A stretch of 64,000 bases of DNA from contig NZ_JAKZLB010000001.1 in assembly GCF_022808865.1 (NCBI RefSeq), forward strand, positions 372,001-436,000, written 5' to 3'. A program made the translations under genes and the position numbers. The notes beneath the pieces are model-generated. The model ran no database searches and had not been told where the DNA came from. It saw only the letters and a program-made list of their open reading frames with translations. Below, in pieces: positions 45,663 through 49,414 of the stretch (the first letter of the stretch is position 1; each line of letters begins with the position of its first letter). The DNA is from Geothrix oryzisoli. GTDB lineage: Bacteria; Acidobacteriota; Holophagae; Holophagales; Holophagaceae.

Positions 45663-46412
45663 TCAGGCTCCTTCCCACAGCTCCCGCAGCCGCTGGTAGC
45701 CGGCCCGGCTGACAGGCAGGCGCGTGCCATCGCGCAGGATGGCGTCGCGGTGCTCCTTGGTGTCCTGCTCCACCCGCACGAGGCGGTCGAGGTTCAGGAG
45801 GTAGCTCCGGTGGATGCGGATGAAGCGGGCCGGGTCAAGCTGACCCTCCAGGCTGGCCAGGGTCTGCTGCTTCAGGAGGTTCTTCCCCTCGGTGCGCAGC
45901 AGCACGTAGTCGTCCTGGGCCTGCACCCAGTCCAGGCGCTCCAGGTGGATCACGGTCACCTTGGGGCCGTCCTTCACCACGATGCGCTCGAGGGGCCGGC
46001 CCTGCCGGGCGGCGGCGGCCAGTTCCGCGGCGGGGGGCGGCGCGGGCTGGGCGGCGTGCAGGGCACGCGCCTTGGCCAGGGCCGCGTCGAAGCGCTCCTT
46101 CGAGAAGGGCTTCAGCAGGTAGTCCACCGCGTGCGCTTCGAAGGCCCGCAGGGCGTGCTGGTCGTAGGCGGTGACGAAGACTACGGCGGGACGCTTCCCC
46201 TCCGCTTCCAGCAGCTCCAGCACCTCGAAGCCATCGAGCTTGGGCATCTGGATGTCCAGGAAGATGAGATCGGGCTGGTACTGGGCCGCGGCCTTCAGGG
46301 CCTCGAAGCCGTTGGCACACTCGGCCGCGACTTCCACGTCCGGATGGGCCGCCAGATGTTCCCGCACCACGGCACGGGCCAGGTCTTCGTCATCGATGAT
46401 CAGGGCTTTCAT
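45663..46412 (-). CDS. LytTR-family response regulator
   Basis: 249 aa. The receiver domain has acidic pair DDED (residues 7-10), phospho-Asp D53 in FLDIQMPKLDG, Thr near 81 and K in LLKPF. The LytTR DNA-binding domain is at about 145-247 (IVVKDGPKVTVIHLERLDWVQAQDDYVLL then IRIHRSYLLNL). It overlaps the kinase gene by 4 nt. LytTR regulators bind paired direct repeats, and such a pair lies upstream of this operon at 48737-48769. Confidence 0.93.
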   Translation of the reverse strand: MKALIIDDEDLARAVVREHLAAHPDVEVAAECANGFEALKAAAQYQPDLIFLDIQMPKLDGFEVLELLEAEGKRPAVVFVTAYDQHALRAFEAHAVDYLLKPFSKERFDAALAKARALHAAQPAPPPAAELAAAARQGRPLERIVVKDGPKVTVIHLERLDWVQAQDDYVLLRTEGKNLLKQQTLASLEGQLDPARFIRIHRSYLLNLDRLVRVEQDTKEHRDAILRDGTRLPVSRAGYQRLRELWEGA

Positions 46413-47473
46413 GGTTCTGTCTCCAAGGGGAAGACCAGGGTCACGCGGTGGACGTCCTGCTGCACGCCCGCCTCGAAGCGGGCCCGGCTGCCGAACCGTC
46501 CGAGCAGCCGCTGGCGGACCTGGCGCAGGCCGAGGCCCAGGCCCTGGGGGGCCGGCGCCTCGAGATCCGCGGGGTTCTCCACCCGCAGGGTCACGTGGCC
46601 TTCCACGATGTCCGCCGCGACCAGGAGGGTGCCGCCATCGGGCAGGGCAGCGATGCCGTGCTTGATGGCGTTCTCCACCAGGGGTTGCAGCAGCAGGGTA
46701 GGCAGGAGGGCTGGTTCGGCCGCGGGATCGATGCGCCAATCCAGCTTCAACCGGGCCCCGAAGCGGATCTGCTCGATGGCCAGATAGGCCCGGGCCAGGT
46801 CCAGTTCCTCCCGCAGCGCCACCAGGCGGCGCTCCCCCAGGCCCAGGCTGCGGCGGAGGAAGTCGGAAAGCAGCACGCACATCTCCCGGGCCCGGGCGGG
46901 ATCCACGGCCGTGAGCGCCGACAGTGAGTTCAGGCTGTTGAACAGGAAGTGGGGGTTGAGCTGGGCGCGCAGGGCCTTCAGCTCGGATTCCTGGGCCAGG
47001 AGCTGCAACTCGGCCCCCCGGCGTTCAGCCTCCAGGGCCCGGTCCTGGGCCAGCATGAGGTAGCTGAGGGCCACCGAGGCCAAGTAGAGCAGGATGCCCA
47101 CACCCGTGAGCACCGGCAGGGCGAGGTCCACCCGCTGGGGGAGCGCGCCCAACCCCGGGATCCAGGCCAGGATCCGGGCCAGCAGCCAGGCCAGCCCGGC
47201 CCAGATGCCGCCCATGAGCACCGCCGCCAGGCCCCAGGCTGCCCCGTGCGAGCCGAGGGCCTCCACCTGGCGACCCAAGGGCAGCGCCCGGCAAAGGAAC
47301 CAGGCGGACAGGAACAGGAAGGCCGCCACCAGGCAGAGGGGTACGGCGAGCATGCTGGCTTCGACCCAGCTCCAGCCCTGGCTCCGGGCGATGCCCGTCA
47401 GCAGCAGGGCGATGGGGGCCCACCCCAGAAGGTAGGCCCCCAGACGCGCACGGCTGGCCAGCAGAGGATGCAT
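46409..47473 (-). CDS. LytS-type sensor histidine kinase
   Basis: 354 aa. Four membrane helices (about 12-28, 40-60, 78-108 and 118-142), almost no extracellular loops, then the His_kinase domain with His175 in QLNPHFLFNSLNSL. The HATPase domain has N box PLVENAIKHG and a terminal GLGLRQVRQRL. The lack of a sensor loop suggests sensing in the membrane or via the LiaF-like partners encoded just upstream, as in LiaFSR/VraTSR systems. Coupled at both ends (ATGA with the regulator, 1-nt overlap with the LiaF-like gene). Confidence 0.9.
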   Translation of the reverse strand: MHPLLASRARLGAYLLGWAPIALLLTGIARSQGWSWVEASMLAVPLCLVAAFLFLSAWFLCRALPLGRQVEALGSHGAAWGLAAVLMGGIWAGLAWLLARILAWIPGLGALPQRVDLALPVLTGVGILLYLASVALSYLMLAQDRALEAERRGAELQLLAQESELKALRAQLNPHFLFNSLNSLSALTAVDPARAREMCVLLSDFLRRSLGLGERRLVALREELDLARAYLAIEQIRFGARLKLDWRIDPAAEPALLPTLLLQPLVENAIKHGIAALPDGGTLLVAADIVEGHVTLRVENPADLEAPAPQGLGLGLRQVRQRLLGRFGSRARFEAGVQQDVHRVTLVFPLETEP

Positions 47474-48183
47474 CAGCTCTTGACCTCGGTGCCGCCGAAG
47501 AGGATGAGCCCGGTGATCACCAGGCGGGGCCGGCTGTCCGGAGATGCCGGCCCGTGGTGCGTGCCGTCGTTGAGGGCCCCGGCGATGGCGGTGGCGCGGT
47601 TGGAGATCTCCCAGCCTTCGGGCACCCGGATCTCGCCGCCGCCGAACAGCACGAACACATCGATGCGGGCCTGGCCGTTTTCGAGCACCGCCTGGCGCAG
47701 GTCCACTTCGTAGCCGCCGAAGATGGCCGTCAGTTCGCCGCCCTTGAAGGCCTGGGTGGAGATCCGCCGCTTGAAGCCGCCAAAGATGGCCGTGCCCTGG
47801 AGGAAATCCTCGGAGCGCGCCAGCTCCGGGGGCACGCCCCGGGTCTGCTTGAGCGCCTTGATCACGATGAGGATGCCCACGGCCACCACCAGCATGGGTC
47901 CCAGGGCGTCGGCCAAGTGGCCATGGCCGAAGGTGAAGAGCAGCAGGAAGGCCCCGCCCAGCACCAGGAACCAGCCGCCCAGGTTGCTACCGCCCCGGTC
48001 CTGACGGATCTTCGCCACGCCCATGGCCACGAGGACCAGGGGCCAGAGCTTGAAGATGGTGTGGGCTTCGATGAGCCCGAGGTTATCCAGGGTGAGCACC
48101 AGGCCCGCCACGATGATGGCCACGCCCACCACCAGCTTGGGGCTGAAGGGGCTTGGGGCCTTGGTGTCGTCGGGGGCGGTCAT
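47473..48183 (-). CDS. LiaF-like membrane protein
   Basis: 236 aa. An N-terminal block of short helices (about 18-35, 44-56, 70-85 and 90-108; DUF5668/LiaF-TM-like) is followed by a soluble domain with the repeated FGG pattern: TAIFGGFKRR, TAIFGGYEVDLR and FVLFGGGEIRVPEGW. This is the C-terminal LiaF-like fold that controls cell-wall stress kinases in Firmicutes. The stop overlaps the kinase start by one base, so it is likely the direct regulator of that kinase. Confidence 0.85.
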   Translation of the reverse strand: MTAPDDTKAPSPFSPKLVVGVAIIVAGLVLTLDNLGLIEAHTIFKLWPLVLVAMGVAKIRQDRGGSNLGGWFLVLGGAFLLLFTFGHGHLADALGPMLVVAVGILIVIKALKQTRGVPPELARSEDFLQGTAIFGGFKRRISTQAFKGGELTAIFGGYEVDLRQAVLENGQARIDVFVLFGGGEIRVPEGWEISNRATAIAGALNDGTHHGPASPDSRPRLVITGLILFGGTEVKS

Positions 48184-48605
48184 GGCTTCACCTGGGCGGA
48201 GTCGTGTTCAGGATCACAGGAAACCCCGGGCTCTGGCGATGGGGGTTGCGACCGGTTCCGGCGAGGCCTCCGAGGTTGGGGGAAGATGGCCCGTAGAGCC
48301 ACGACCACACCGCCCCAGATCAGGAGGACCGGCCACCAGCGCTCCAGCAGGCCCCAGGGCCCGAACTGGGAGATGAACCCCGCCACGGCGAAGCCCAGCC
48401 AGATGTGGCCGCGCAGGCTGAGAGGGCCATCCTGGACCAGCCGCGCAAGCCCGAAGGCGGCCAGGGCCACCGGCCACCAGGCCAGCAGGTGCCAGGCATC
48501 GTACCAGTGCAGGCTGTCCAACAGGAGGATGAGGCCGGTGGCGATGACCACCAGGCCGAGAACCAGCTTGACCGAAAAGACCGGGGGGCGTTCCTGGGGG
48601 CTCAT
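48180..48605 (-). CDS. DUF5668/LiaF-TM-like small membrane protein
   Basis: 141 aa with four predicted helices (about 12-28, 35-50, 62-80 and 86-104). It is homologous in pattern to the N-terminal part of the next gene (KLVLGLVVIATGLILLLDSL against KLVVGVAIIVAGLVLTLDNL), but lacks the soluble FGG domain, so the two look like a duplication. ATG 48605 overlaps the stop of the upstream 37-aa peptide, and its own stop overlaps the LiaF-like start. Confidence 0.8.
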   Translation of the reverse strand: MSPQERPPVFSVKLVLGLVVIATGLILLLDSLHWYDAWHLLAWWPVALAAFGLARLVQDGPLSLRGHIWLGFAVAGFISQFGPWGLLERWWPVLLIWGGVVVALRAIFPQPRRPRRNRSQPPSPEPGVSCDPEHDSAQVKP

Positions 48606-48715
48606 GGGCGGTATTCCTTTCTTCCTGAACCGAAGGGGACGGCGAAGGCCAGGGAGGGGAGCCACAGCGCCAGCCACCACCAGGGGCTGTCGAGGAACCA
48701 CCCTGCGTGGACCAT
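48602..48715 (-). CDS. 37-residue hydrophobic peptide heading the LiaF/LytTR operon
   Basis: ATG at 48715 with a near-ideal Shine-Dalgarno AAGGAGG 5 nt upstream, the best RBS in this operon. The peptide has an amphipathic start (MVHAGWFLDSP), a Trp-rich hydrophobic stretch (WWWLALWLPSLAFAVPF) long enough for one membrane span, and a basic tail (GSGRKEYRP). Its TGA overlaps the ATG of the next gene (ATGA). RBS, hydrophobicity and coupling together argue that it is translated, perhaps as a small regulatory or accessory subunit. It is too short to be picked up by most gene finders. Confidence 0.65.
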   Translation of the reverse strand: MVHAGWFLDSPWWWLALWLPSLAFAVPFGSGRKEYRP

Positions 48716-48736
48716 GTCCGCCTCCTTCCGCATGAC

Positions 48737-48769
48737 CAGGCTACGGGCGTCCTGACAGGCATACGGGCG
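48737..48769 (-). promoter_or_regulatory. direct repeats upstream of the LiaF/LytTR operon
   Basis: Minus strand reads CGCCCGTATGCCTG then, 19-20 nt on, CGCCCGTAGCCTG, identical but for one inserted T. They lie 22-54 nt upstream of the first start codon. Spacing of about two helical turns between direct repeats is how LytTR regulators bind, so this is a candidate autoregulatory site. Confidence 0.4.
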
Positions 48770-48805
48770 AGGATCGGCGAATGGAGGGCAGGGACCGGCG
48801 AGCGG

Positions 48806-49414
48806 TCAGTCCCAGGCGATGCTGCCGCCGCGGCTGCGTTCCTGCCAGGCGTGGTCGAGGGTGGGGCACTGTTCCGGAGGGCACTCGAAGCGCAGGGTGG
48901 CCCATTCACCCTCGAAGGCCTGTTCCACCAGGGCCGCATCCGGGAAGGCCCCCAGCAGGGCGAAGGGCAGGTGGGCCAGGGCCGCAGGCACCCGGATCAC
49001 ACCTGTGCGGAGCACCTTCACCTCCTCCCAGAGGCCCCGGCCATCGGCCTCGGCCAAGGCGCCCTGCACCCCCTCGGTGTAGGCCCGCACCAAGCCGCCG
49101 GTGCCGAGTTTCGTGCCTCCGTACCACCGGATGCAGATGGCGATGAGGTCCGTGGCCCCGGCCCCCTCCAGTACCGCCAGCATCGGCCGTCCGGCGGTAC
49201 CGGAGGGTTCGCCGTCATCGTCGGCGCCGGAAGCCGTGACTGGAACGCCCTCGCGCCAGGCACTGCAGTGGTGGGTGGCATCGAAGTCCCGCTTGCGGAG
49301 CGAGGCCAGCACGGCCGCCCGCTCGGCCCCATCCCGGGCCGGGTGCAGTTCCGTGAGGAAGACGGAGGCCTTCTCGCGGAAACGGTGGCTCACGACCTCT
49401 TTCAACCGACGCAT
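48806..49414 (-). CDS. YigZ/IMPACT family protein
   Basis: 202 aa, UPF0029/IMPACT family, possibly acting in translation or RNA binding. Characteristic motifs are RDFDATHHCSAWR near residue 43, DDDGEPSGTAGRPML near 65 and IRWYGGTKLGTGGLVRAY near 95. The C-terminal ferredoxin-like domain is present but divergent. A monocistronic minus-strand gene, divergent from fhs. Confidence 0.9.
   Translation of the reverse strand: MRRLKEVVSHRFREKASVFLTELHPARDGAERAAVLASLRKRDFDATHHCSAWREGVPVTASGADDDGEPSGTAGRPMLAVLEGAGATDLIAICIRWYGGTKLGTGGLVRAYTEGVQGALAEADGRGLWEEVKVLRTGVIRVPAALAHLPFALLGAFPDAALVEQAFEGEWATLRFECPPEQCPTLDHAWQERSRGGSIAWD

Follow-up and report, generated by a model that had tools for sequence, protein, structure and literature searches.

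In the window (the whole 64,000-nucleotide stretch of Geothrix oryzisoli DNA that was analyzed), a 37-codon open reading frame on the minus strand encodes a Trp-rich small membrane protein with one hydrophobic span. We regard it as almost certainly a real gene, and it is kept in nearly all Geothrix species examined at the head of an operon that continues with two LiaI/LiaF-type membrane proteins, a LytS-type histidine kinase, and a LytTR response regulator. Our explanation as a whole, in which this real small membrane protein is the product of the leading cistron in an envelope-stress operon of LiaI/LiaF-LytS-LytTR type that is autoregulated, and serves as an accessory or feedback subunit, is one to which we give equal weight for and against. 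A broader proposal is made more tentatively, with doubt somewhat outweighing confidence: that the peptides belong to a new family of small single-span proteins, fast-diverging and represented in most Holophagaceae genera examined, that they act as induced feedback subunits of LiaF-LytS, and that the LytTR operator defines a small envelope-defence regulon comprising the operon itself, a NatAB-like exporter, a PF13796 gene, and an exported protein.

The small gene and its operon

The gene and its neighbors have the following positions.

48602-48715, minus strand: Trp-rich single-span small membrane protein of 37 aa (MVHAGWFLDSPWWWLALWLPSLAFAVPFGSGRKEYRP), supported by frame conservation, pN/pS, and a family-wide slot
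48721-48727, minus strand: Shine-Dalgarno sequence AAGGAGG of the peptide, 5 nt ahead of its ATG
48615-48620, minus strand: AAAGGA, the Shine-Dalgarno sequence of the next gene, read from the sequence within the C-terminal codons of the peptide
48180-48605, minus strand: LiaI/LiaF-TM-like membrane protein, 141 aa (PF18917 and PF22570 above cut-off)
47473-48183, minus strand: LiaF, 236 aa (PF22570 and PF09922 above cut-off)
46409-47473, minus strand: LytS-type membrane histidine kinase, 354 aa (PF06580)
45663-46412, minus strand: LytTR response regulator, 249 aa (PF00072 and PF04397)
48806-49414, minus strand: UPF0029 (YigZ/IMPACT-like; PF01205), an upstream neighbor conserved in synteny and outside the system

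The peptide frame runs from an ATG at 48715 to a stop at 48602, and its coordinates, strand, and length of 37 codons proved exact. Its strong Shine-Dalgarno sequence is present as described, and the stop of the peptide and the start of the LiaF-TM gene form an exact ATGA overlap, which supports the proposed translational coupling. An alternative in-frame ATG upstream (48733, giving 43 aa) is not conserved, whereas the start at 48715 is, and a GGAG/GAGG-type Shine-Dalgarno sequence lies upstream of nearly all of the homologues. The window's genome has one copy of the gene. The peptide has no match in Pfam or NCBIfam, the LiaI-LiaF-TM domain is absent from its 37 residues, and a gene of this kind is easily missed by annotation. 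Its AlphaFold model (mean pLDDT 73) consists of helices at residues 3-9 and 11-25 with a break at residue 10. Across genera, the N-terminal flank of the span has a charge of 0 to -3 and the C-terminal flank is mostly positive; judged from these charges, the topology is probably N-out, C-in. The Rfam search gave, at 48670-48706 of the window on the minus strand, just a sub-threshold prion-pseudoknot match on the TGG repeats of the peptide (E 0.013); a reading of the segment as an RNA leader, for which this match was the sole support, was rejected and the match taken as chance.

Pfam confirms the composition proposed for the operon. The second gene has LiaI-LiaF-like_TM1 and LiaF-TM domains; the third combines the N-terminal LiaF-TM with the C-terminal LiaF-like_C domain, the arrangement that identifies LiaF, although the NCBIfam model LiaF_C_term scores below its cut-off on this protein (22 versus 57 bits). 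The His_kinase gene and the Response_reg-LytTR gene overlap by 4 nt and constitute a LytS/LytTR two-component system, and successive overlaps along the five-gene chain are 4, 4, 1, and 4 nt, within the range of 1-4 nt claimed for them. The operon does not hold a LiaS/LiaR (REC-HTH) pair, its kinase being of the PF06580 type and its regulator a LytTR protein, nor is it a LytTR Regulatory System in the sense of a regulator and a membrane inhibitor with no kinase, as both a receiver domain and a kinase are present.

Conservation in Geothrix and its sister genera

A match to the peptide was found in 44 of the 47 Geothrix genomes searched. The three genomes with no match are all incomplete: two give no LiaF hit either, and in the third LiaF is present only as a fragment, the contig ending within that gene. 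The frame, read directly, is intact in all 43 of the full-length copies compared, each of which starts with ATG and ends at a stop that the ATGA overlap supplies, with a recognizable Shine-Dalgarno sequence in nearly all. Lengths are 35, 36, 37, or 39 codons, so that every indel consists of whole codons. The pooled pN/pS among these copies is 0.49 (codon bootstrap 0.35-0.63), with values of 0.42 (0.28-0.61) for the Trp/TM core and 0.50 (0.35-0.71) for codons 2-29, from which the C-terminal tail is excluded; these intervals are approximate because sequence pairs are not independent. Neutral simulation to the same divergence gave pN/pS of 0.88-1.11, with a stop gained in 34-67% of simulated sequences, and the Ka/Ks-type check suggested for the 37 codons thus points to purifying selection. 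It should be noted that conservation of the C-terminal tail (RKE) is partly explained by the AAAGGA that it encodes for the next gene, and it is for this reason that the test on codons 2-29 matters. The residues that vary least across the alignment are Met1, Trp6, Trp12, Leu17, Pro20, Leu22, Pro27, and Lys33. A subset-profile search of genome contigs brought up records under the names Geothrix, Holophagaceae, or Acidobacteria, and the named relatives are G. fermentans, G. campi, G. fuzhouensis, G. rubra, G. limicola, G. terrae, and G. paludis. The peptide of G. fermentans, a culturable species, is 92% identical.

The order UPF0029, small ORF, LiaF-TM, LiaF, kinase, LytTR is kept through much of the family, and six sister genera (g17, g18, g19, g20, g22, and g23) have a single-span ORF of 34-46 aa in the same slot. 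For g20 and g23 there are two and five sequences, respectively, with pN/pS of 0.44 and 0.34, again a sign of purifying selection; for the other four genera the assignment is by single sequences and position. The ATGA overlap is present in Geothrix and in four of the six sister genera that have a small ORF. Profile comparison of the g23 and Geothrix peptides with hhalign gave a score of 32.8 and a probability of 94%, a score reached by none of 200 block shuffles (maximum 27.4), and by this measure the g23 ORF is a detectable homologue. Beyond Geothrix and g23, homology was undetected where tested, namely for the small ORFs of g20. In one g17 genome the slot is occupied by an ORF of 100 aa (L071 2628-2930).

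The first-pass annotation staked the peptide on an unbroken frame among close relatives in which the operon is retained. This is the case in the 43 full Geothrix copies, but one metagenome-assembled genome (G033) has a copy split by an insert, and g21, g24, and g25 have the operon and no small ORF. Because these three groups carry the operon without it, the sensor works without the peptide, which is therefore an accessory rather than an obligatory subunit. In g23, which has no LiaF-TM gene, the peptide is found by itself ahead of LiaF; this argues that the peptide is retained for itself, beyond any coupling.

Predicted operator, putative regulon, and known systems

A LytTR-type operator spanning 48773-48802 lies just upstream of the peptide gene and consists of two 9-bp repeats with a 12-bp spacer; the first-pass annotation mentions neither it nor the putative regulon.

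48794-48802, minus strand: direct repeat 1 (CTCGCCGGT)
48773-48781, minus strand: direct repeat 2 (TTCGCCGAT), 21 bp start-to-start from repeat 1
48738-48743, minus strand: TAGCCT, a TANNNT -10-like box at a constant distance of 38 bp from where repeat 2 starts

In front of the tested operons, the consensus is YTCRCCGRY for the first repeat and YTCRCCGAW for the second. In a scan that allowed spacings of 18-25 bp start-to-start, 21 bp was the best in all 64 loci, two of which (L069 and L072) are a poor fit to the repeats. A CCGTA box follows the start of repeat 2 by 35 bp in 57 of the 64 loci and by 36 bp in one, which makes the TANNNT hexamer a -10-like element and puts a likely -35 region some 6 bp beyond repeat 2. 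Within the window, the repeat pair is the only match at one mismatch or fewer (0.01 expected), and the 77 family genomes contain about 130 exact matches against none for a reversed control; two-mismatch matches in the window's genome hardly exceed the control and were left out of the results. The operator is present in 62 of the 67 genomes with a LiaF operon and in 2 of the 10 without (Fisher p 2.4e-6, with no correction for phylogeny), including at operons that lack the small ORF, and its presence tracks the LiaF operon and not the number of LytTR genes. Since the window's genome has four LytTR genes, we infer the cognate pair from this co-occurrence, which suggests that the LytTR protein of the operon binds the operator directly. 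Published LytTR systems rely for positive autoregulation on direct repeats separated by a 12-bp spacer and located immediately ahead of the -35 region (PMC6193735), and the present arrangement conforms to the spacing rule for such promoters, with direct repeats of about 9 bp separated by 11-13 bp upstream of the core promoter (PMC6193735). The operator thus makes it probable, and in our estimation quite strongly so, that the operon is autoregulated by its own LytTR protein, with the peptide as the first product after induction.

The same operator arrangement and TANNNT box precede other targets in the family. In at least seven genomes, these include a NatA/NatB-like ABC exporter (L109, L111, L114, L115, L117, L118, and L126), of which L118 belongs to the window's own genome and has one mismatch in the operator. 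Also behind the operator are a PF13796 "Sensor" gene (L119, in the window's own genome with one mismatch, and L123), HlyD-type genes in g23 (L120 and L122), and an exported protein of 466-472 aa (L108, L110, L112, L113, L116, L125, and L127). The exported protein (L108 625-2043 and relatives) contains internally similar segments, and its first 110 residues have no Pfam match.

In Bacillus subtilis, the LytTR-type two-component system NatK-NatR controls natAB, which encodes a NatA/NatB ABC exporter, and is not known to include LiaF, LiaI, or a small peptide; the exporter considered here, unlike that of NatK-NatR/natAB, lies elsewhere in the genome. The Bacillus LiaIFSR and PSP-linked LiaI-LiaF-TM/Toastrack operons resemble the present one in combining a small membrane protein with LiaF and a two-component system, and share the LiaI-LiaF-TM and LiaF C-terminal domains (PMC11237479). 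However, Bacillus LiaI is itself of the four-TM LiaI-LiaF-TM type (PMC11237479), which is here preceded by the additional single-span peptide, and the Bacillus pair is LiaS/LiaR (REC-HTH) rather than LytS/LytTR; PspA/LiaH is also absent from the present operon. The HdrRM and BrsRM LytTR Regulatory Systems share a LytTR regulator, a LiaF-type DUF2154 membrane partner (HdrM), direct repeats with a 12-bp spacer upstream of the -35 region, autoregulation, and links to ABC transporters, but have two core genes and no kinase (PMC6193735), whereas the present operon has a full two-component system, a pair of LiaF-type proteins, and the small peptide. An association of LytTR with LiaI-LiaF-TM/Toastrack operons has been noted in Firmicutes (PMC11237479), and the membrane proteins of LytTR Regulatory Systems can carry DUF2154 (PMC6193735). 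The kind of system is therefore known; what is new is the small-protein family and the operator with its putative regulon in this Acidobacteriota family, no description of the peptide or operon in Geothrix having been found in the literature searched. LiaF-type sensors are widespread, and they raise the question of how an intramembrane-sensing kinase is controlled by LiaF together with small partners in the membrane. The present operon offers a compact natural system, having lineages with and without the small protein and a predicted promoter and regulon as readout. It also contributes a gene for a small protein that no Pfam or NCBIfam model covers, together with an explicit sequence code for a putative LytTR regulon in Acidobacteriota.

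Possible roles of the peptide

In the mechanism that we favor, envelope stress would relieve LiaF-type inhibition or activate the kinase, and the phosphorylated LytTR protein would then bind the pair of 9-bp repeats that lies directly ahead of the promoter, switching on the operon along with envelope genes and the NatAB-like exporter. The peptide, being made first, would insert as one helix and may join the LiaF-kinase membrane complex and tune it, as an accessory or feedback subunit. That the peptide acts on the sensor complex is a claim that, on our analysis, falls just short of an even balance; the regulatory-subunit role put forward in the first-pass annotation is plausible. Feedback inhibition of this kind is exerted on the kinase PhoQ by MgrB, whose gene lies outside the phoPQ operon. 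MgrB, of 47 aa, is, like the peptide, a small single-span membrane protein from the regulon of its kinase (PMC8404706, PMC10576120); MgrB-PhoQ serves here as a model for the proposed mechanism, and not as a demonstrated relative.

The main rival, which we consider unlikely, is that the peptide is an independent stress effector, induced by the system and acting on the membrane, the NatAB-like exporter, or another envelope protein instead of the kinase complex. Small membrane proteins rich in Trp frequently target the bilayer or serve as subunits of transporters, the promoter class is common to the peptide, the ABC exporter, and the exported proteins, and the peptide is dispensable to the sensor in some genera. 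Against this, the gene is always within the sensor operon and adjoins LiaI/LiaF, and in the loci examined none lies beside the exporter.

Less probable again is that the ORF is a leader cistron that chiefly delivers ribosomes to the LiaF-TM start by coupling, its peptide sequence mattering little. The ATGA overlap in Geothrix and four sister genera, the position of the next Shine-Dalgarno sequence inside the ORF, and the frame that stays open through the G033 insert are in keeping with such a role, but purifying selection acts on the N-terminal and TM codons, outside the tail that bears the Shine-Dalgarno sequence, g23 keeps and conserves the peptide though no gene overlaps it, and g21 has LiaF-TM with no small ORF. 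LytTR quorum systems pair a peptide gene with a LytTR two-component operon, and by this analogy the product could be a secreted, processed signal sensed by the kinase in the manner of Agr or Com; this is very improbable, as no processing or export gene was found within the operon, the N terminus is not positively charged, and the alignment does not resolve into a constant leader and a hypervariable mature part. A chance ORF in GC-rich DNA, to which the shortness of the frame and its want of a family hit might point, is scarcely credible and was rejected by the selection tests, given the conserved start, Shine-Dalgarno sequence, and stop, whole-codon indels, and purifying selection across 43 species.

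The insert in G033 (L057 1581-1858, G033:C22) is a MITE-like element of about 278 bp with inverted repeats, which splits the peptide ORF. It is predicted to fold very stably (z -9.6) and has no Rfam match, and no copy was found in the window; matches to it occur in 41 of the 47 Geothrix genomes, often 15-20 or more in each.
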